64,000 nucleotides of DNA from Halobaculum sp. XH14 (GTDB lineage: Archaea > Halobacteriota > Halobacteria > Halobacteriales > Haloferacaceae): positions 2,852,001-2,916,000 of the forward strand of contig NZ_CP134949.1 in NCBI RefSeq assembly GCF_032116555.1, in the 5' to 3' direction. The position numbers and the translations under genes were made by a program. Positions within the stretch are counted from its first letter, which is position 1. The number at the start of each line of letters is the position of its first letter. The notes below the pieces were generated by a model. It had not been told where the DNA came from, did not search any database, and saw nothing but the letters and a program-made list of their open reading frames with translations. This document shows, in pieces, positions 19,472-38,146 of the stretch.

Positions 19472-19618
19472 TCACGATACCAGCCGCGTTATCGACTGGC
19501 GGACGATGATCGGATCGGCATCGATGAGGCGAGCAGTCCGGTCGTGAATCGCCTCGAGGTCAAGCCCCGAGGCACTCGCCTTGCTTATCCGTAGAGTCTC
19601 TTTTACGAAGACATTCAT
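19472..19618 (-). CDS. Possible 48-residue protein or gene remnant
   Basis: A short minus-strand frame: MNVFVKETLRISKASASGLD and LEAIHDRTARLIDADPIIVRQSI. Composition is protein-like rather than Arg/Ser shadow. It sits divergently from the AbiE operon and near A+T-rich DNA (19620-19665). It could be a small regulator or the end of a decayed gene. Confidence 0.3.
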   Translation of the reverse strand: MNVFVKETLRISKASASGLDLEAIHDRTARLIDADPIIVRQSITRLVS

Positions 19619-19669
19619 TGGACGCACCTCCATCAAAACATTTGATTTTTGACTTGATTTAGTTTCTCT

Positions 19670-19682
19670 GTTCGCTGAGCGG
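19670..19682 (+). promoter_or_regulatory. Operator-like repeat 1 upstream of AbiE operon
   Basis: gttcgctgagcgg. An almost identical copy, one base different, lies at 19752-19764, and an inverted copy of its first ten bases at 19712-19721. Probable binding sites for the AbiEi antitoxin. Confidence 0.55.
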
Positions 19683-19711
19683 TTTACACCGCGACTTTCA
19701 CCGAACTAGTT

Positions 19712-19721
19712 CTCAGCGAAC
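19712..19721 (-). promoter_or_regulatory. Operator-like repeat 2 (inverted) upstream of AbiE operon
   Basis: ctcagcgaac, the exact reverse complement of 19670-19679. It directly precedes the TATA-like cctttatcac (about 19723-19732), which lies 35-44 bases before the ATG. Confidence 0.55.
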
Positions 19722-19751
19722 ACCTTTATCACTGCTGGATTTAGACTCTAT

Positions 19752-19764
19752 GTACGCTGAGCGG
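19752..19764 (+). promoter_or_regulatory. Operator-like repeat 3 overlapping the AbiE transcription start
   Basis: gtacgctgagcgg, ending three bases before the AbiEi ATG at 19767. Its position over the expected transcription start suggests repression by blocking initiation. Confidence 0.55.
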
Positions 19765-19766
19765 CT

Positions 19767-20600
19767 ATGGAGTCAACAAACGAAGAAGAGACTCTACGAA
19801 AGGGCCTGTCGACGCGTGAGTCGCAGGCACTGTCACGGCTCGCAAGCGAGGATCGGCGGGTCATCAGCAGTAGTGACATCGCGGACGTCCTCGACATCCC
19901 TCGGAAGTCGGCCACGGACATGGCGTATGCCCTCAAGGAGAAAGGCTGGCTTGAGCGGATCGTGCACGGGACGTACCTCATTCTGCCGCTCGCTGCCGGC
20001 GAGAACCCCGTGTATACCGAACACGAGTTCGTGATCGCGTCTGCACTCGTGGAGCCGATGTACATCGGGTACTGGAGTGCGATGAATCATCACGAACTGA
20101 CGGAGCAGCTGTCCCGGACGGTGTACGTCGTGACGACAGCGCGCGCCCGAGAGCGTGACATCCACGGGGTCACGTATCGTCCGGTGTCGGTCACGGAGCA
20201 GAAGTTCTTCGGCTATCAACCGACGGCGGTCGGGTCGAACCAGGTGAACATTTCGAGTGTCGAAAAGACGCTGGTCGATTGCGCCGATCATCCGGAGTTC
20301 TGCGGGGGTATCAGCGAGCTTGCGAAGGCGATGCAGAACGCTGGCAACATGCGATGTTCGTGGGAACGCGTCGTCGAGTATCTGCGGCGAGTTGGAAACG
20401 GTGCCGCAACGAAACGACTCGTGTATCTCGCCGACCAGTTGGACATCTACCTTCCGGAGTACCGGGACCTCGTCGAGAACTTCACGACGGGATACCCGCT
20501 GCTCGATCCGACGAGGGAAGCGACGGGGACCCGCGACAGCACGTATCAACTCCGTCTGAACGTTGCCCCCGAATCGTTCCTCCCTGGTGACTTCTCATGA
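19767..20600 (+). CDS. AbiEi-type antitoxin and autoregulator
   Basis: 277-residue protein with an N-terminal winged helix (STRESQALSRLASEDRRVIS; DIADVLDIPRKSATDMAYAL; KGWLERIVHGTYL). The AbiEi C-terminal domain follows, with YIGYWSAMNHHELTEQ near residue 105 and NISSVEKTLVDCADHPEFCG near 160. Known AbiEi proteins repress their own promoter through inverted repeats and neutralise AbiEii. The stop overlaps the AbiEii start by four bases (ATGA). Three operator-like sites precede the gene. Confidence 0.88.
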   Translation: MESTNEEETLRKGLSTRESQALSRLASEDRRVISSSDIADVLDIPRKSATDMAYALKEKGWLERIVHGTYLILPLAAGENPVYTEHEFVIASALVEPMYIGYWSAMNHHELTEQLSRTVYVVTTARARERDIHGVTYRPVSVTEQKFFGYQPTAVGSNQVNISSVEKTLVDCADHPEFCGGISELAKAMQNAGNMRCSWERVVEYLRRVGNGAATKRLVYLADQLDIYLPEYRDLVENFTTGYPLLDPTREATGTRDSTYQLRLNVAPESFLPGDFS

Positions 20601-21403
20601 TTTCCGACGCGCAATTACGACGGCTGGCCAGAGAACTGGATGTTCGCCTCGGCTACGCGGAGAAGAACTACGTCAATTCGTGGATCCTCTGGGCGATCTA
20701 CACGAGTCCCTCCGGTGACAACCTGCTCTTCAAGGGTGGAACTGCGCTCAGCAAGTTGTACTTCCCGGAGACGTGGCGCTACTCGGAAGACCTTGATTTC
20801 GGTGTCGAGGGAGCGTACCACGGGAGCGAAGTGGAGTTGCAAAGCACATTGGAAGACGCGACGAGCGCATCCGGTATCGACTTCGAGGTGACCAAACACC
20901 GCGAACTGCAGAAAGAGGAGTATCCGACGCACTACGTCGATATCGATATCCAGTACACCGCCGTTCTCGGCCACAAGAACACGACGAGTCTTGACGTTAT
21001 GATCGATGAACACGTTGCGTTCGCTTCGGTAGACCATCGCCACAGCTACGAGGATGTCCCGGAATTCGAGGTGACCGCGTACAGCCGTGAGGAAATTTTC
21101 GCGGAGAAGTTGCGAGCGCTCTATCAACGGTCACAGGCTCGTGACTACTTCGACCTGTATCGGATGATTACCGAGGCCGACGTTGATGAGTCGGATGTAC
21201 TTCCGGCATTCACGCGGAAGTGTGAACACGACGGTCTTGACATCGACCTTCGGGACGGGCTTCCCGGAGAGAAACGGAATGAGATCCGTGACGGTTGGCA
21301 AAATACGCTCCCCGATTTGGTTGCAGACCTCCCCGAGTTCGGCCCCGTGTATGACACACTCGAAGACTACGTCCATTCGCTGGTCGACGAACAGCAACGC
21401 TAG
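20597..21403 (+). CDS. AbiEii-type nucleotidyltransferase toxin
   Basis: 268-residue protein of the AbiEii/AbiGii nucleotidyltransferase family, toxin of type IV toxin-antitoxin systems linked to phage abortive infection. The motifs are clear: LLFKGGTALSKLYF (about 42-55) and the catalytic RYSEDLDFGV (about 60-70), with a further acidic strand TSLDVMIDEH and a lysine-containing EIFAEKLRALYQRSQARDYFD around 165-185. It is translationally coupled to the AbiEi gene. Length and motifs look intact. Confidence 0.88.
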   Translation: MISDAQLRRLARELDVRLGYAEKNYVNSWILWAIYTSPSGDNLLFKGGTALSKLYFPETWRYSEDLDFGVEGAYHGSEVELQSTLEDATSASGIDFEVTKHRELQKEEYPTHYVDIDIQYTAVLGHKNTTSLDVMIDEHVAFASVDHRHSYEDVPEFEVTAYSREEIFAEKLRALYQRSQARDYFDLYRMITEADVDESDVLPAFTRKCEHDGLDIDLRDGLPGEKRNEIRDGWQNTLPDLVADLPEFGPVYDTLEDYVHSLVDEQQR

Positions 21404-29269: not shown

Positions 29270-30849
29270 ACGTAACCGAGGTCCTCTAGATGTTCCCGCA
29301 CCGCATTAGCATTTCCACCGCGGCTTTCCACTGATTCGACGATTTCGTAGTCGCGAAACTCTATCTCTCGATTTTCCTTGTGCGCGGGCGTGAACGCATC
29401 CTCGATGACAGATCCATCCATGTCTGAAGATATTGGAACCCCCTGATTGTACAGTATCGTCGGGGCAATATCCAGCAACGACGCGTTGGCACCGGTTCCC
29501 GTTGCTGCCCCTTCGCCACTGACGATAAATATTCCATTCCGCTTGTGACCTCCGCTCCGCGATGGTGATGGCGGACGCTCTACTAAGACTTCCGAACCAG
29601 GTGACCGACCGGCTTCGAGGGCGTATTCGAAATCCTCGATGGTATAGAGAATATCCGGAGCACGGTCTATCGCTGGTCCTGCATAGAGGTCATCGGGCGA
29701 GTAAATTTCGTATGCTAAGCCGTTTTGCTCGAATAGATTAGTTAACTTTTCAACAACTCGCCCCCGGTCTGTTGGATTATCTGAGAGCATATGGATAAAT
29801 CCCTTGTCACTTGCACAGGCGATGCTACGTTCCGTATCGACAGTTTCTACCGGCGACGGTTTGATCGATCTACCAATGGATTTCGCAAAGTCGTTGAGTA
29901 TTGGTACGTTACTGACAAGTGGCTCTGCAATCCGACGTAAGTGGGGGAAAAACGTATCTCGGGCACGCTGAAGTGATGATTGGTCGGCTGGGATACGGAG
30001 TCCCTCTGATTCAAGCCAATCATTCACATAGAAAGTCCCATTGAATGGTCCAAAGCCGTGGTCGGAAATGAGAATTAGAGTTGCGTCGCGTTTCTGGGCA
30101 ATCCTGTGGACGGCACCGACAGTCTCGTCAACTTTCTTCCATATATCCTGATAACACAATACACCATCTGTAGCAGTTGAATCGTACAAAACATGTTGCT
30201 CATCAATATACTTCCAGTAATAGTGTTGCATCCAGTCAGTAACACTAATGACACCACAAAATACATCAGTGGATCGTTTAGTCAATAGATGTTTAATCAT
30301 CTCCTTGCGGTTATCGAGATGGTCAAGGAGCGCCATCGAAAGTTCTCCAGGACGTCCAATGTACTTGGGATCAGAAAATGGAACCGTAATCTCGAACTCT
30401 CCAGCAACGTCTTCAAGTTCCGATTGGAGTTCCGACGGGTAAGCAAACTTGTCGTCCTCAGGGGCACCAAAGCCACTCACCATGTACCCGTCCACTTCGT
30501 AAGGCGGGTGAAGCATAGGGAAGTTGAACACCCCAGTTGATTGTCCTTCCTGGGAAAGTAGATCCCAGAAGCTTCGCCCCTTGAAGTCACGGCTACTCAT
30601 CGGTTCGAATTCGAATGTGTCAGAGTTTACACGGTTGAGAAAATAGTAGATGCCAGTCTTGCCAGGGTTCTTCCCAGTGGCCATCGATGCCCAGGCAGGG
30701 CCACTAGTGGGCGGATACACGCTCTCTAATGAGCCAGAATAGCCGTTATCCTTGAGAGCCGCCAGATTAGGGAGGAGATCTTCCTGAATGAGCTGATCTA
30801 GTACACTCCAAGTAGCTCCATCCAATCCCAAGACGATTGTGTCTGTCAC
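29266..30849 (-). CDS. Alkaline-phosphatase-superfamily protein 2
   Basis: 527-residue paralog of the upstream protein, in opposite orientation. Motifs: TIVLGLDGATWSVLDQL at the start, PPTSGPAWASMATGKNPGK with the Ser/Thr nucleophile, LILISDHGFGPFNGTFYVND in the middle, and a C-terminal region with GGHKRNGIFIVSGEGA containing the last metal His. Cytoplasmic by absence of a signal peptide. It is more A+T-rich than core genes in the window. A biosynthetic phosphotransfer or phosphodiester role in glycan decoration is inference. Confidence 0.85.
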   Translation of the reverse strand: MTDTIVLGLDGATWSVLDQLIQEDLLPNLAALKDNGYSGSLESVYPPTSGPAWASMATGKNPGKTGIYYFLNRVNSDTFEFEPMSSRDFKGRSFWDLLSQEGQSTGVFNFPMLHPPYEVDGYMVSGFGAPEDDKFAYPSELQSELEDVAGEFEITVPFSDPKYIGRPGELSMALLDHLDNRKEMIKHLLTKRSTDVFCGVISVTDWMQHYYWKYIDEQHVLYDSTATDGVLCYQDIWKKVDETVGAVHRIAQKRDATLILISDHGFGPFNGTFYVNDWLESEGLRIPADQSSLQRARDTFFPHLRRIAEPLVSNVPILNDFAKSIGRSIKPSPVETVDTERSIACASDKGFIHMLSDNPTDRGRVVEKLTNLFEQNGLAYEIYSPDDLYAGPAIDRAPDILYTIEDFEYALEAGRSPGSEVLVERPPSPSRSGGHKRNGIFIVSGEGAATGTGANASLLDIAPTILYNQGVPISSDMDGSVIEDAFTPAHKENREIEFRDYEIVESVESRGGNANAVREHLEDLGYV

Positions 30850-31088
30850 TCAATTACTACAGTGGATTTTGTCCGTATATCGTTATTGGTTTTGTGCTAC
30901 TGAGAAGTGTCAGTCTGCCACATAGTGGATAAGACTAAATCTGATTTCGACAGGGTCAGTCATGATATAGAGCCGACTACATCACAGTTTACTAAATTCA
31001 GGACAGACAGGGCATGAGAATACGATCTAAAGACTGAATCGCTCATCAATAGAAAAGTTGATTTGGTCTGTAGAGAGCACTAATTTAC

Positions 31089-31964
31089 ATGCCCTCAGTT
31101 GCGCTAGGTGTGAAGGTGTTCTCTAGAGTTTCGAAGCTTTCTGAATTGCTAAATTCAATTCCAAAAGGCATATTTGATACCGTCTATGTTGCCGATGATG
31201 GGGAAAGTGACCCCCAAAAGAAAGAGTTATATTCAAATAACCATGATTATGATTTAATAATATTAGATTTGGAATATGACTCAGGATTGGGTTTCGGTCG
31301 GCGTCGTATTATCGAGGAGATGGATGAGGAATACTTACTCATCGTAGATAGCGACCATGAAGTCCCAGATAATGTTGACGTTCTCATCAATCAGATGGAA
31401 TCATCTCCAGAGTTTGGAGGCATTGCGGGCCTGTGGCTGGAGGATGGAAGTTTGGTTGGGGGATGCCATGATCTTTTTGAGGAGGGTAAAGTACTAATCC
31501 GAGATATTCGAGACGGCAAGGAAGCCTCAATAATTGAAGGCCATCCGATTATTCCGTTTGAATTTGTACCCAACACCGCAATTTTTCGGAGTGCTTGTTT
31601 AGATAGCTATGCATGGGATGAGGAATACATCATTGGTTCTGAACATCTCGATTTTTATGTTGGCCACAAACGGCATACAGATTGGAAGTTTGGAGTTTGT
31701 CCAAGCGTCCTTTTTCCCCACAAACCGGGAGGAGATAGTAGTTATCTACAGAATCGGCAGAGTGCGGCAAAGAATATGGATAGTAAATCTTATTTTTTAG
31801 AAAAGTGGGGATATGAGCAAGTTGTTTGGAATGATGTGTTCCCACCACAATATCAACATCGACAGGTACTTTTGAACCAATATTTACTATCCTCGACCAA
31901 GTCAAAAGCTCTCGTTCAATCCTTTCTCGATGCAGTACAAAATATTCGTGGTTTCTTTGCATAA
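31089..31964 (+). CDS. Glycosyltransferase family 2-like protein
   Basis: 291-residue GT-A fold protein. It begins MPSVALGVKVFSRVSKLSEL, shows VYVADDGESDP as the nucleotide-binding acidic loop near residue 36, and LLIVDSDHEVPDNVDVLI with the DxD-type metal motif near residue 85. The C-terminal half, with HLDFYVGHKRHTDWKFG, is family-typical acceptor-side sequence. The gene is markedly A+T-rich with codons such as ATA, TTA and AAT, unlike the flanks, suggesting acquisition from another source. It stands between two minus-strand genes, so it is probably transcribed alone. Confidence 0.8.
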   Translation: MPSVALGVKVFSRVSKLSELLNSIPKGIFDTVYVADDGESDPQKKELYSNNHDYDLIILDLEYDSGLGFGRRRIIEEMDEEYLLIVDSDHEVPDNVDVLINQMESSPEFGGIAGLWLEDGSLVGGCHDLFEEGKVLIRDIRDGKEASIIEGHPIIPFEFVPNTAIFRSACLDSYAWDEEYIIGSEHLDFYVGHKRHTDWKFGVCPSVLFPHKPGGDSSYLQNRQSAAKNMDSKSYFLEKWGYEQVVWNDVFPPQYQHRQVLLNQYLLSSTKSKALVQSFLDAVQNIRGFFA

Positions 31965-32115
31965 TTATTATGTGCCAGATGGGTGTGATTCTCTACAACT
32001 TCAGTTCGGTCAGTCTGCTTCTCGTTAAAACTAACTGAGTTCATCCCAACAGTACGAGACTATAGAATACGAATATTTTCAAGCGAATATAAGAGACACT
32101 ATGGATTGTCTAAAA

Positions 32116-33612
32116 TTATTGTAGTGAATTTATGAGAAGTGTATCATTCTCATCCAGTTGTAAGATGGACATAGTTATACAAAATACGAAAAAGGAAATT
32201 GTACCAATCAATAGAACACGCAAGATCGGGAATACCGGGAGTAACTGGCCAAACCACATCACAGTAGAGGCGAATAGAATAGCTAGAAGTCCTTTCCAGT
32301 AATTTCTACCAAAAGGATTCTGATTCAGTGACCACCAGACTTCTCCCAATCGTAGTAAATTAAGCAAAGCAAGGGCACTACTTGTTGCAAGTGCGGCTCC
32401 GACGACACCAAATTGTCGGATTAAGAAGTAATTTAATATAACGTTTGTAAACGCAACAATAACAGTGTTTGCTGCGTCTAATCGTTCGTATCCCGTCATT
32501 AGCAACAGAAACCCAACTGGTCCAGTAACTGCAACAATAGCCTGCCCAATAGCGAGTATTCGTAGCGAAATTCGTGCTTCAGGAGTTGATGCTCCGAAGA
32601 GTGTGAGAATATCCCCCGCATAGAAAAGAATGAATACAGCCCCTAGTACCGTGAGGTATGTTACCCACTTCGTTACAACATCATGGATCCGTCGCAGACG
32701 TTCGTGCTGGCCTCTAGAATGTAAGTCTGATGTGAGCGCTGGGAAAATCGAATTTGCCGCGTTTAGAACAATAGTAAGCATTACTGAGGTTTGAAAAGCT
32801 GCTTGGTACCATCCAAGCTCGGAGGCCGGAACCAGAAATCCAAGCATCAGGATGTCCGTCCATGAGATAAAATACTGTGTGATTGCGACGATCGTAAGCG
32901 GTGTTGCATACATAATTAATCGCCGCCCCTCAAACTCGGGGCGAATCCACTGAATCCCCCCTTGGCGCCACAATGAAAGTACAACTAACAGAATACCAAA
33001 TAATAGTGAGCCCAAGTATCCCAATACTATGACCCGAATGTCTGCAAAAACATAACCACCGATAACGGCCATAAGGACGGCTAAGCCAGATTGTCCGAGG
33101 TCGCGGATGAGAACGGCGTATTTCGTCTCTTGGAATCCTTTTGTTGCGGACATTCCCACGGTCATCACTGCAAACATTGGGATCCCCAGAAGAAACACCT
33201 GTGTAACCGAAGTGAAGGATTCCCCCGTGATTCGATTCACATAACCCTCTGCTACATAAATAATAATCGCGAGAATAACCCCAAGTATGAGTGGGATGAT
33301 GAGACAAAGGATAACTGTTCCAAGGAGCTTTGAATCGTCATCTTCCATTAGGTAAATCGGTATAAATTTTTGGGCCGCGTTATTTAATCCAACGCGGGCA
33401 GCTACCGCACTAGCTTTCATCACAACTATACCGAAGGCAAATACTCCTAGTGCCTCAGGCCCAAGACTACGAGCAATTATAACATTGAGGAAATAGCGTA
33501 ACCCTCGACCTACCAATCCACCTATAAAAGCAATCGATGCAACCTGGAGAAACGACTTTCGCATTAGACGAAAGTAAGTCAACAGGAGATGGGAAAACTT
33601 CTCCGTTCTCAT
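32116..33612 (-). CDS. Polysaccharide flippase (Wzx/MATE-like)
   Basis: 498-residue protein with about 12-14 transmembrane segments, of the polysaccharide-export/oligosaccharide flippase family. The opening RKSFLQVASIAFIGGLVGRG then LRYFLNVIIARSLGPEALGV is typical, as are later RIHDVVTKWVTYLTVLGAVF and SLRILAIGQAIVAVTGPVGF. It would move the finished lipid-linked oligosaccharide across the membrane. A start at 33564 is an alternative that drops the first 16 residues. A TATA-like ttatatag lies near 33656-33663. Confidence 0.9.
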   Translation of the reverse strand: MRTEKFSHLLLTYFRLMRKSFLQVASIAFIGGLVGRGLRYFLNVIIARSLGPEALGVFAFGIVVMKASAVAARVGLNNAAQKFIPIYLMEDDDSKLLGTVILCLIIPLILGVILAIIIYVAEGYVNRITGESFTSVTQVFLLGIPMFAVMTVGMSATKGFQETKYAVLIRDLGQSGLAVLMAVIGGYVFADIRVIVLGYLGSLLFGILLVVLSLWRQGGIQWIRPEFEGRRLIMYATPLTIVAITQYFISWTDILMLGFLVPASELGWYQAAFQTSVMLTIVLNAANSIFPALTSDLHSRGQHERLRRIHDVVTKWVTYLTVLGAVFILFYAGDILTLFGASTPEARISLRILAIGQAIVAVTGPVGFLLLMTGYERLDAANTVIVAFTNVILNYFLIRQFGVVGAALATSSALALLNLLRLGEVWWSLNQNPFGRNYWKGLLAILFASTVMWFGQLLPVFPILRVLLIGTISFFVFCITMSILQLDENDTLLINSLQ

Positions 33613-34043
33613 TTTGACCAGTGATCCTAATCATTTTTAGTTCGTCTCATAGAACTATATAATTAGTATCCGTTGAGCATTATAATCCATGAAAACAGGA
33701 TAACCTCCGTGCATCGGAGAGGCCATCAAACTGCAAACTCCAATTGTTGCTAACTATGTGGGACGTTAATACGATTCTGGCAAGCATATTAAATCTGGAG
33801 ATTGTGGAGTGGATTGGCTTCATTGACAATTGTTCGTTCTAGCCCACGCCGTCAGAGTAAGTTTCACCCGCCAGGCCGCAGCGTATAGCGCCGGCGAACT
33901 CCCCACTCAGAACGACATTCTGTGCACACCGAGTGGATATAGGATCCAATGTATGAGAGTTGCTAGATTATTGAGACTGAACACAATCGTCAGAACAACA
34001 ACGGATCCATCAAGTATGCATTGGCCTTACAGAGATGTAATGG
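33613..34043. other. Intergenic A+T-rich region
   Basis: About 430 bases with the flippase promoter at its left edge. Short frames are present but none resembles a known protein. The strand composition changes near 33840, which may mark a join between segments. Confidence 0.4.
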
Positions 34044-34289
34044 CTATCCTGTTCTACATCCTAGATCTTCCTGGACGGCCGTAATGGAGACCTCCAGCAG
34101 AAAATGACAGTGAAGCATGCTTCGTCGACTTGATGACTGCTGCTGGTCGTCTGTACTTACATTTCTCTCGTGAGCTAATACTCCCAAGCAAACCATCATT
34201 CCTAGGGCGATCCAGAGCATGATAGTGAGAAAGTGGATACTACTATCACGAACGAAAACTATGGGGAGTTGACTATGTTCAGTACTCAT
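34044..34289 (-). CDS. Possible small membrane protein
   Basis: 81 residues with one hydrophobic helix (HFLTIMLWIALGMMVCLGVL, about 19-38) and a polar C-terminal part of uncertain reality. A TATA-like sequence near 34308-34318 lies about 24 bases upstream of its ATG, the right distance for leaderless transcription, but the same element serves the plus-strand gene at 34340. Not recognised; may be a remnant. Confidence 0.3.
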   Translation of the reverse strand: MSTEHSQLPIVFVRDSSIHFLTIMLWIALGMMVCLGVLAHERNVSTDDQQQSSSRRSMLHCHFLLEVSITAVQEDLGCRTG

Positions 34290-34307
34290 CGTTTCCTTCT
34301 ACGTATA

Positions 34308-34318
34308 GCTTAAATATC
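34308..34318. promoter_or_regulatory. TATA box shared by divergent starts
   Basis: gcttaaatatc. The near-symmetric core is centred about 27 bases before the plus-strand ATG at 34340 and about 24 bases before the minus-strand ATG at 34289, both matching leaderless haloarchaeal spacing. Confidence 0.5.
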
Positions 34319-34339
34319 TCCGCCGAAGAGACGGCTGAT

Positions 34340-35842
34340 ATGAGCAATGAACAGTATCAGTTTACTACTTGGTTTCATCGAATTCGCCGTAATTCATTCT
34401 TACAACTTCGATACTTTCCTGTTCTTACTCTTCTACCGCTCCTAACTTCAAGTGTCCCATCATCATACCTGCCAAGCAGGGAGATTGCCCATTATTTCCA
34501 AGCACTCGCTTTTGCCCGAGACGGGCTCAATTCCTATGGATATCTCACTGTCCGGGAAAGTGGTGCCGCACTACATCTCTACTCGCTTATTCTTGCTCCT
34601 TTCATCAAACTTGGATTCGTTACCTCAGGGCGATTCGTGAGTGCTGTGGCTGCTCTCGGGACTACAATCCTTATCGCGTATCTTGCACGCATTTGGTTTG
34701 ATTCAAACGTTGCATTTCTAGCCCCGATCATTCTCTGGGTAAATCCGTTTTTCTATCGGTTTGCATGGGCCTATATGCCCGATTCCCTTTCAATATTCTT
34801 GACCGTAAGTGCTGTAGGGACGATGGTTCGGTACACTGAAACTGACGCCATTAAATGGTATCTTGTCTCAGTCGCAGCGATTGTACTCGCCATCGCAAAT
34901 CACGGATGGGAGGCAACGATTCTTCTTCCTGTGGCAACTCTACTCTGGGTATATCAAAAGCGTCGAGGTGCTATTATCTATGCAATTCTTACAGTGGCCT
35001 CAGTCGGTACGGTCAAATACCTCGTTGGACTTCAACCACTGCCAACGACGGGATCTGGTTACCTAATTACTGATGTTGGACTATCATTTTATTTTACATC
35101 CGACTTTTGGATGGGGGTCGTCACGCGCCCTTACTCACCGTTTTACCTTGGTCACAGTCTCCACTTTTACCCGGGATTAGTAGCAGTTCTCTATTGGCTT
35201 CGGAATGCCTACCTCGGAGTCCGAAAAGACACATCCCTCATAATGGCTGCATGGTTGTCTAGTGGGCTGTCTATCCCGTTTATACTTCCAGGGGGATTGA
35301 ACCATCACTACTATTTATGGGCACTTGTTGCTCCAGTCACGCTTACAGTTGCTGCCGTCATTCCTAAGATAGTAAATTCGCTCGGAGTTGGGATAACTAG
35401 TCATCAAGAGAGTCGAATTAAACAAGCAGCAACCGTCATACTTATCATATTAGTTTCAGTAAACGGTCTGGTATTCGAAGCAGGGCTGTTTATCGGAGAC
35501 GCAGGATCTCCACCAGCAGTAGGTGACCGCCATGAGAATCCTGAAATAATGCCATCAGAAGCAGTCTCGACAGGCGAGCAATTAGCAAAAATGGACGTTT
35601 CTGATCCGAATAGGATCGTGTTCCTTACAGAGGAGGCCAATGAGCTTCATCGTCAAACGATATTCCGCGTCCTCGTGCATGGGGATGTCTTACTTCGGGA
35701 TACATGGAATCCCTCATTTACTCCCAGCTCGAATACAGTACCTCGGTACGTTACTGATCAAGATGATGTACTTAATTGTGATGTAGTTATTAAAAAGGTT
35801 GATCAAAAACTACTTGTTAAGAGATGTCTGGGGAATGTGTGA
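34340..35842 (+). CDS. GT-C-type membrane glycosyltransferase (ArnT/PMT-like)
   Basis: 500-residue integral membrane protein with roughly 10-12 transmembrane spans and a hydrophilic C-terminal domain. The segment SYLPSREIAHYFQALAFARD near residue 45 has the acidic residue expected in the first extracytoplasmic loop of GT-C enzymes, and later loops contain GLNHHYYLWALV. It would use a polyprenyl-phosphate sugar to extend or modify the glycan on the outer face. Subfamily and sugar are unknown. Confidence 0.72.
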   Translation: MSNEQYQFTTWFHRIRRNSFLQLRYFPVLTLLPLLTSSVPSSYLPSREIAHYFQALAFARDGLNSYGYLTVRESGAALHLYSLILAPFIKLGFVTSGRFVSAVAALGTTILIAYLARIWFDSNVAFLAPIILWVNPFFYRFAWAYMPDSLSIFLTVSAVGTMVRYTETDAIKWYLVSVAAIVLAIANHGWEATILLPVATLLWVYQKRRGAIIYAILTVASVGTVKYLVGLQPLPTTGSGYLITDVGLSFYFTSDFWMGVVTRPYSPFYLGHSLHFYPGLVAVLYWLRNAYLGVRKDTSLIMAAWLSSGLSIPFILPGGLNHHYYLWALVAPVTLTVAAVIPKIVNSLGVGITSHQESRIKQAATVILIILVSVNGLVFEAGLFIGDAGSPPAVGDRHENPEIMPSEAVSTGEQLAKMDVSDPNRIVFLTEEANELHRQTIFRVLVHGDVLLRDTWNPSFTPSSNTVPRYVTDQDDVLNCDVVIKKVDQKLLVKRCLGNV

Positions 35843-35932
35843 ATAGCGTTCTGAAAAATAACACCCATCAAGATACAGTGGTCAAAGGCGACAGAATTCT
35901 GTTCAATATGGGAGGAATTCCTAGAATAAAAT

Positions 35933-36865
35933 GGCTCTGGTGAATCCTAGACTGCGCCGAGTTACACCGTTAGAATTTGGGAGATGAAATGAGAAATCAC
36001 CGATGCTCTATGTCGAAGATCTCCTGCTTCACGAAGGAAGCGGTCACGTTAGCTAAAAATGCTGTTGGGGGGCGAGACGAAGTCGCCGCCCCCGAAGGAG
36101 TGGCGACTTCGATGACACGCCCTCATGTCGCTGCTCTGTCTGTGGGTTTACCTCGATGAATCGTACCGCAACACACTCGATCTGCGAGCGAAATGCCGCA
36201 TATTCTCGGTGAAATCGGCCTTGAAGAGGGCGATCTCCCTGAATCACTCCACGCTAGTGAAGGTGTTTGATAGGTTCGAGATGAAGGTCTGGCAAGTGCT
36301 GCTCCGACTCTCGTCGGAACTGCACGACTCCTCGGGTCACGCCGCCATCAACGCGACGTTCTTCGACCGCGAAAACGACAGCAAGCACTACTGTCGCAGG
36401 ACGAATTGTCGCGTTCAAACGCTCAAAGCGACAGATCTAGTTGACATAGAAAGCAAGCCATCCTCGACGTACACAGTACGACCGAGAAAACGCAAGACAC
36501 ACAGCTCCGCTTGCAGGTCGCCTCCGCAATGCAGGCAATCTGACCAGCCTCGCCGCCGACAAGGGCTACGACTGGATGGACTTACGCGAGAAACTCCGGG
36601 AAGACTGCGTGAGACCGCTATTTAAACATCGTCTCTTCTGACCCATCAACCACGCGCATTACGCGCGGGTCGGTGAGCTTCGATATCGCCAACGATCGAT
36701 GTGCGAGACCGTCTTCTCGTCGATTAAGCGCGCGCACGGCGACGCCGTGCATGCGCGAACCTGGTACCGAGAACTTCGCGAACTAGTTTTGAAGTGTGTC
36801 GTTCACAACATCAAGCGTGCCGCGATACGGTGGAATCAACCCCTGTATAGTGATTCACCAGAGCA
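35933..36865 (+). mobile_element. Decayed IS5-type insertion sequence with both ends
   Basis: About 0.93 kb bounded by inverted ends: left ggctctggtgaatcc (35933-35947) and right gattcaccagagc (36852-36864), matching as GCTCTGGTGAATC. It contains a transposase pseudogene. The size fits a haloarchaeal IS5-group element. Flanks are A+T-rich (aataaaat on the left, aaataaag on the right), possibly a degenerate target duplication. Confidence 0.75.
36010..36840 (+). pseudogene. IS5-family transposase, multiply frameshifted
   Basis: Pieces of one haloarchaeal IS5-type transposase appear in order in different frames. The start at 36010 reads MSKISCFTKEAVTLAKNAVG. Then come DESYRNTLDL, LVKVFDRFEMKVWQVLLRLS, ELHDSSGHAAINATFFDREN (the first catalytic Asp position is now Asn) and HYCRRTNCRVQTLKATDLVD. 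After frame changes, ADKGYD-like and ETVFSSIKRAHGDAVHARTW, then YRELRELVLKCVVHNIKRA, complete it. About 277 codons in total. Several frameshifts rule out activity. Confidence 0.8.
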
Positions 36866-36964
36866 AATAAAGTTGTATTCCGGATTGTTTTTTAGAACAG
36901 CGTTGGTGATATTCTTCCTCCATCGATCTTATCAGATGTCAGCGACTCTATTTCGTTCTGAAAC

Positions 36965-38146
36965 TCATCTGGCAATTGTCCGATTGTTAACCCCGAGCAG
37001 TGCATACCCACTGATAGCTGCTGATAGGACTGAAATTGCACCCAAGCCAAGAATGCTGAATCCTCCAAACGATTGTAGAATGACGACTGCAACGACTGGT
37101 GGCAACAAACGCTCTTGGCTACTTTGGTGGTAGACTAAGGGGAAGATAATCGTCATTAAAGTGAATATGATGTAGAGTACCCCTCCCACAATACCAGACG
37201 TGAGGAAAAACCGGAGGAAAGAGTTGTGTGGAGTATTCGGCGTAGCACCGGACGGTAAATATGGACGAATGAGTTCAGCTCGGTCTCCTGGCCCCCATCC
37301 GACAAGAGGCCTTTGTAGTGTAGCGTTAATAGTGGCTGGCCAAAGATATTCTCTACCGGTTACATCAATAGGGATGTTTCGATTACTTACGACACTGGCT
37401 TGGAACACTGCAAGACCAAATATACCCGAAAATGTCGAAATAGCTGCTGTAATAATGTATTGGCGATTGAGTAACCAGAAGACAGCGATACCACCCAATG
37501 CCGCAATATAACCCGCTCTGGAGTATGTAAAATTCAGGGCAACAAGATTCAATCCTGCGAACACGTATCCGGCGTGATTGTCATATGATCTCCCTTCAAT
37601 TAGGCCCAGAATGGCGGCAACAGATAGGAACTCCCCTGCAAAGTTAGAGTCGTTGAATATACTAGTGAGTACCTGTATATCTGGGCCGAATATTGCCAAG
37701 AACATCGGTCTACCGAACAGTTCCTCCGATTGGAAAGGGGGCACAACTCCAAAGCTAACGAGTAATCCAAGAATAGATAGACCGCCCCCAATCCGGGTCA
37801 CAGCGAAGACAAACTGTTCATGCGGTAGCGTTGACGGAATCCAAAATACTGTGATCAAAAATACAGGAACGAAGATAATTACCCTGACGCTGGCTGAGGT
37901 GACTATATTGGCCCCGCTAGGGTTAGTTACAGCATGCCACCCAAATATAAGGAAGATCCCAACCATAGAAAGGATAGAATATTTTTCGGCCTGAAATGTG
38001 CGACTTTTTTTGAGGAAATAAAGTGACGCTATTCCGAATGTCACCAAGGCGATTATGTATGAATAAAATACGGGGAATAGCGTAGTTAGTGAGAACAAAC
38101 TTCCAAAGAGGAGAAGGACGAACGCCACAGTCGCTCCATATTTCAC
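36965..38146 (-). CDS. O-antigen ligase/polymerase-like membrane protein
   Basis: 393 residues, about 11 transmembrane spans, with the Wzy_C-type motif in a large loop: FNDSNFAGEFLSVAAILGLI near residue 165 and PNTPHNSFLRFFLTSGIVGG near residue 310, where the His-Asn is characteristic. Such enzymes polymerise or ligate lipid-linked oligosaccharides outside the membrane. It would act after the flippase. It is the last gene of the glycan island on this side. Confidence 0.82.
   Translation of the reverse strand: MKYGATVAFVLLLFGSLFSLTTLFPVFYSYIIALVTFGIASLYFLKKSRTFQAEKYSILSMVGIFLIFGWHAVTNPSGANIVTSASVRVIIFVPVFLITVFWIPSTLPHEQFVFAVTRIGGGLSILGLLVSFGVVPPFQSEELFGRPMFLAIFGPDIQVLTSIFNDSNFAGEFLSVAAILGLIEGRSYDNHAGYVFAGLNLVALNFTYSRAGYIAALGGIAVFWLLNRQYIITAAISTFSGIFGLAVFQASVVSNRNIPIDVTGREYLWPATINATLQRPLVGWGPGDRAELIRPYLPSGATPNTPHNSFLRFFLTSGIVGGVLYIIFTLMTIIFPLVYHQSSQERLLPPVVAVVILQSFGGFSILGLGAISVLSAAISGYALLGVNNRTIAR

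Follow-up and report, generated by a model that had tools for sequence, protein, structure and literature searches.

Two direct 27-bp units around the promoter of a haloarchaeal abiE operon are candidate operators of the antitoxin AbiEi

Autoregulation of AbiE toxin–antitoxin systems is already known from bacteria. According to the accessible parts of two reports (PMC3985639, PMC7319586), two AbiEi monomers of Streptococcus agalactiae sit on 23-bp inverted repeats (IR1/IR2) placed 3 bp apart, so that the promoter is bent and repressed. In Mycobacterium tuberculosis, as far as the accessible part of PMC7319586 describes it, the AbiEi-family antitoxin Rv2827c binds four inverted repeats of differing affinities. 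These are separated by gaps of 13 and 4 bp and spread across about 130 bp upstream of the start codon of the Rv2827c-Rv2826c operon. For the regulation of abiE in archaea our literature search, in which coverage of subscription journals was sparse, found no study.

Here we consider an abiE operon in a window (the whole stretch of DNA analysed, 64,000 nucleotides) of a haloarchaeal chromosome; the host genome has 3.68 Mb in three contigs. Set beside the accessible descriptions of the streptococcal system, the locus shares a winged-helix AbiEi-family antitoxin, bicistronic with AbiEii, and a pair of sites that overlaps the promoter just before abiEi (23 bp there, 27 bp here). The site sequences differ, and the streptococcal sites are inverted with a 3-bp gap, whereas those of the window are direct, 82 bp apart from start to start, and flank an archaeal BRE/TATA; binding and repression were shown there and are inferred here. 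The mycobacterial promoter likewise has several sites for an AbiEi-family antitoxin; however, its four inverted repeats contrast with two direct units here, as far as that source goes (PMC7319586). Repeated sites within the promoter 5′ of abiEi were thus found in the window, as two 27-bp units, but not in inverted orientation with short gaps of 3, 4 or 13 bp. An autoregulated AbiE is a known kind of system, here in a new arrangement: direct repeats set this far apart are unlike the bacterial layouts described in PMC3985639 and PMC7319586.

The operon consists of abiEi (19767–20600, plus strand) and, directly 3′ of it, abiEii, the gene of a nucleotidyltransferase toxin (20597–21403, plus strand); the stop codon of the first overlaps the start codon of the second at 20597–20600. 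The AbiEi product scored above the Pfam cut-offs for AbiEi_4 (29.7 bits, cut-off 25) and AbiEi_1 (26.4 bits, cut-off 22.2) and matched PADLOC AbiEi (1.9e-93); the AbiEii product matched Pfam AbiEii (136 bits, cut-off 22.5; 2e-39) and PADLOC AbiEii (9.1e-87). Judged by family membership of both genes, the operon is an AbiE type IV toxin–antitoxin system. The AbiEi model contains an N-terminal winged helix (pLDDT 62–86), the remainder of the model being poor; its best structural match was Rv2827c (1zel; E 9.5e-06), with a TM-score of only 0.25 for a model that is poor outside the winged helix. When a sequence profile was searched against solved structures, no match was convincing (best E 0.043).

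As to the surroundings, a small divergent ORF (19472–19636, minus strand) would encode 54 aa if read from a TTG and 48 aa if read from an ATG that follows GGAGGTG. An 18-nt stretch within it (19590–19607) has an inverted match (89%) at the start of abiEi (19781–19798). Elsewhere in the window, seven of the eight kilobases of 30001–38000 have a GC content of 0.41–0.47, whereas about 0.6 is seen in much of the sequence; such a dip resembles that of an acquired island.

A sequence-only reading of this DNA had described a 13-base site that occurs twice in direct orientation, with its ten-base core once inverted in between, as a three-site operator array. The two direct copies are indeed there: GTTCGCTGAGCGG at 19670–19682 and GTACGCTGAGCGG at 19752–19764, identical at 12 of 13 positions. 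The similarity continues over 30 nt (19653–19682 and 19735–19764, 25/30 identical, spacing 82); among 1000 dinucleotide-preserving shuffles of 19560–19766 no 30-nt direct pair reached at least 25/30, the maximum being 21. The repeats are real, but the 13-base unit was drawn too short, as the true unit is 27 nt long. The distal operator-like unit, TTTAGTTTCTCTGTTCGCTGAGCGGTT, occupies 19658–19684 (plus strand) and contains 19670–19682; the proximal one, TTTAGACTCTATGTACGCTGAGCGGCT, occupies 19740–19766 (plus strand) and contains 19752–19764. The proximal unit covers the predicted transcription start, and its last base stands directly before the start codon of abiEi. The distal unit begins 82 bp upstream of it, with 55 bp between the two. 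When up to three mismatches were allowed, the longer unit was found at these two sites only in the 3.68 Mb host genome.

Conservation was followed in 20 loci from named genomes and 30 loci drawn from a search of 392 genomes of the order, 79 of which had matches; removal of 10 of these 50 loci as duplicates left 40 distinct loci. Of these, 37 form clade I (AbiEi 76–100% identical), where one, L020, was included by a 72-residue match only and was left out of later clade-I counts, leaving 36 loci. The alignment A1 was made without L011 and L018 (internal stops); the N-terminus is missing from L098. The clade-I consensus of the unit is TTTAGANTCTATGTACGCTGAGCGGCT, 27 bases. A proximal unit directly precedes the start codon in 37/37 clade-I loci (the start is ATA in the broken L044), and a matrix built from the proximal copies detected a distal copy in 32/37 promoters. 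Spacing from start to start, tallied by eye, was 83 bp in 20 loci, 84 bp in seven, 82 bp in two (including the window) and 81 bp in two, both weak; it fell within 81–84 bp in 31 of the 32 loci with a distal copy. The exception is L011 (131 bp). An insertion of ~48 bp separates the units of L011, and both its genes are broken; the insertion resembles what we take to be a haloarchaeal transposon end. Four low-scoring distal copies were counted as present by position (L014, −2.6; L045, 7.9; L046, 8.0; L033, 9.5; of 50), that of L014 being better called decayed. In five of the 37 loci the matrix scan found no distal unit (L027, L029, L040, L043, L044); as both genes are intact in L027 and L029, the distal unit is not essential.

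Mean pairwise identity was computed for 30 loci (the 36 minus the five without a distal unit and minus L011). It was 0.92 for the proximal and 0.77 for the distal unit, 0.93 for the TATA block, 0.67 for the BRE block, 0.52 for the linker, 0.43 for the spacer and 0.32 for the upstream DNA. Identity at four-fold degenerate sites of abiEi was 0.60 (630 pairs, 36 loci), against 0.92 in the proximal unit. The DNA between the units has drifted in sequence, with its length nearly constant. A search for the motif upstream of other haloarchaeal abiE operons had been proposed along with the array, and it bore out the direct pair: orthologous operons do carry the repeats. For both direct copies, this comparison strongly supports a conserved regulatory site before abiE; the proposed autoregulatory site stands in so far as the two direct copies are conserved at abiE loci, without its inverted third member, to which we now turn.

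The string CTCAGCGAAC at 19712–19721 is the exact reverse complement of 19670–19679, and the exact inverted match in the window reaches 11 nt (CTCAGCGAACA, 19712–19722, minus strand). The inverted core was reported correctly, but appears to be of a different nature, a BRE-like element beside a TATA element. In haloarchaea the BRE is CGAAA and the TATA element TTWT, according to the accessible part of PMC4983044. The inverted stretch forms the upstream part of the core promoter and includes a BRE-like CGAA at 19717–19720; downstream of it is the TATA-like TTTAT of the abiE promoter (19725–19729, plus strand), which fits TTWT and is conserved in the 30 aligned loci (first base in 29/30, the other four bases in 30/30). 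Aligned clade-I loci preserve the middle element in the form CTCAAC..A.TACCTTTAT. Position 19716 is G in the window, as a perfect inverted match requires; of the other 29 aligned loci, 28 have A there and one has a gap. As the middle element fits BRE plus TATA and the relatives have A at 19716, we read 19712–19729 as the core promoter. From TTTAT a transcription start near 19752–19756 follows, a fair prediction by what we take to be the haloarchaeal convention for the distance from TATA to start.

No inverted copy of the 27-nt unit was found in the 37 clade-I promoters, where every minus-strand matrix score was negative; with the A for G at 19716, this led us to reject the three-site operator. 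That AbiEi has a true third site in the inverted element, be it in this genome alone, is unlikely in our estimate. We retain the idea because an exact inverted repeat of at least 11 nt arose in only 3 of 1000 shuffles (dinucleotide-preserving, 19560–19766), a figure that counts against the core-promoter reading; also, the CTCAAC block, conserved in the family, lies slightly upstream of the minimal BRE.

Considering the whole order, we saw that the pattern TTTAGANTCTATGTANNNTGAGCGG, with at most one mismatch, has 43 sites in 31 of 392 genomes; the reversed control pattern had no match in the 392 genomes. By comparison of coordinates, 41 of the 43 sites adjoin abiEi matches, among them broken genes of G300 and G303. 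Two sites are left, both in decayed loci: in L104 the unit survives together with the ATG and about 20 abiEi codons, whereas L114 retains the distal unit with its downstream linker. In L114 abiE is gone, and the remnant sits at the 5′-end of an ORF whose product would begin with a zinc-ribbon-like CxxC segment and finish in a hydrophobic tail. An end repeat of a mobile element was rejected as an explanation, since the two copies share one side of the operon and keep a fixed spacing. Viral carriage, or decoy operators, was also rejected: for a 14-base pattern the matches listed in viral contigs were uninformative, and an 18-base pattern was found in 15 contigs (36–44% GC, without AbiEi) as one similar stretch that reads by eye as coding (LEELDSMYIER). 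No AbiEii relatives were found by search in viral contigs.

More distant AbiE loci have units of their own. In clade II (42 loci scored, AbiEi 54–61% identical; L077, with no clear start codon, was left out) a version with consensus TTTATACTCTATGTAAGAAACGCAGGT stands at the same position in 42/42 loci, the weakest scores being 15.8 (L090) and 24.2 (L089) of 47.7. There is no second copy in these 42 loci, where other upstream sites never exceed −3.9. Clade III, five more distant loci, has the left part in common (TATA-N-TCTAT or close); L019/L097 (AbiEi 48% identical) has no recognisable unit. Clade I and clade II AbiEi share 0.49 identity in the winged helix and 0.62 in the C-terminal domain; thus, the larger change has fallen on the domain that reads DNA, and likewise on the right half of the site. 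Three genomes (G161, G017, G266) carry one clade-I locus together with one or two clade-II loci, each with its own version of the unit.

At the place of clade I's distal unit, 26 of the 42 clade-II loci have an inverted repeat, TTAACCAAC-N-GTTGGTTAA, in a region that runs from about −121 to −68 relative to the start of abiEi (e.g. L062, L053, L064). The ORF before this repeat contains HE(Y/F)AHALLHF in four of six loci read (L062, L085, L079, L053), presumably a mark of an ImmA/IrrE-like metallopeptidase. Another relative, about 59% identical to the window AbiEi and accompanied by abiEii, is found on pNRC200 of Halobacterium salinarum NRC-1, a laboratory strain (L264, VNG_RS10855); its identity is at the level of clade II. 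It is flanked by Cdc6/TRAM and ParA genes, a setting that one would expect of a plasmid-maintenance module.

The 36 clade-I loci were divided into 25 with both genes intact, eight with an intact abiEi and no full abiEii, and three with a broken abiEi (L038, with an AbiEi of 276 residues, was counted as intact). Hence 8 of 33 intact abiEi genes lack a full abiEii, and none of the three broken ones is accompanied by a full abiEii; this pattern of gene loss fits toxicity of AbiEii and its neutralisation by AbiEi. The eight orphan abiEi loci, with abiEii deleted or broken (L005, L009, L014, L032, L039, L040, L041, L043), keep the proximal unit in 8/8 cases and the distal unit in 5/8; such orphan antitoxins may serve as immunity. 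The distal unit is in place in 23/25 intact loci and in 6/11 others (Fisher p 0.018, a value that ignores shared ancestry). DNA before the remaining unit, compared with DNA upstream of distal units, gave 120 in L104 (shuffled maximum 30) and 54 in L029 (32); the same comparison for L040 was not significant (28, shuffled maximum 31). As the flanks of L104 and L029 match DNA upstream of distal units, recombination between the two direct units seems to have deleted the promoter that lay between them. Since then abiEi has decayed in L104; both genes are still open in L029.

Units of fixed position and spacing, restricted to abiE loci and varying in sequence with the AbiEi clade, are established here. 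On our analysis they are probably operators at which the antitoxin AbiEi represses its own operon, and AbiEi is most likely the protein that binds each 27-bp unit. The reading is supported by the spacing of 81–84 bp in 31/32 loci beside a linker and a spacer of low identity (0.52 and 0.43), by the restriction of the motif, across 392 genomes, to abiE loci or what remains of them, by the clade-II version in 42/42 loci and the three two-clade genomes that keep both versions, by the stronger divergence of the winged helix than of the C-terminal domain between clades, by retention of the proximal unit in all eight toxin-less loci with AbiEi, and by binding of bacterial AbiEi and Rv2827c to promoter repeats with ensuing repression, as the accessible parts of PMC3985639 and PMC7319586 have it. 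Against it stand the five of 37 loci without a distal unit, the single copy of clade II, the absence of a unit in L019/L097 and the known bacterial sites, which are inverted and close, whereas those here are direct and 55 bp apart; the 83-bp spacing could also partly reflect shared descent.

As for mechanism, we infer repression on binding and possible cooperation between sites. AbiEi on the proximal unit, over the predicted start and just 3′ of TATA, should block RNA polymerase. The distal unit, about eight helical turns upstream and on the same face of the helix, may cooperate by bending or looping, and BRE plus TATA would be enclosed between two bound AbiEi molecules. One could speculate, rather tentatively, that AbiEi on two direct operators ~eight turns apart closes a promoter loop around BRE and TATA, and that co-resident clades are insulated by their different operators.

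The units could instead be core-promoter or translation-start elements, with a leaderless transcript that has TTTAGA/TTTATA at −27 as its TATA, and with a second promoter in the distal copy. Much of clade II does have TTTATA 27 nt upstream of the ATG, and most transcripts of Haloferax volcanii (72%, according to the accessible part of PMC4983044) are leaderless. However, a core promoter does not need TCTATGTA...TGAGCGGCT, which is yet conserved in the distal copy too; clade I has a better BRE and TATA at 19717–19729, and the unit is absent elsewhere in the host genome, so that we consider this explanation quite improbable. Binding by a host regulator other than AbiEi is very improbable, although a defence operon could fall under host control, for the 392 genomes hold no sites beyond abiE loci and their remnants and the unit varies with AbiEi clade inside a single genome.

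With AbiEi preferred as the binder, the units provide a precise candidate operator for an archaeal type IV toxin–antitoxin system. A natural experiment is offered by the two AbiEi clades, each with its own operator sequence and three times found together in one genome, and their comparison would let the DNA code of the AbiEi family be worked out. It would also reveal how a two-site repressor acts on a TBP/TFB promoter.
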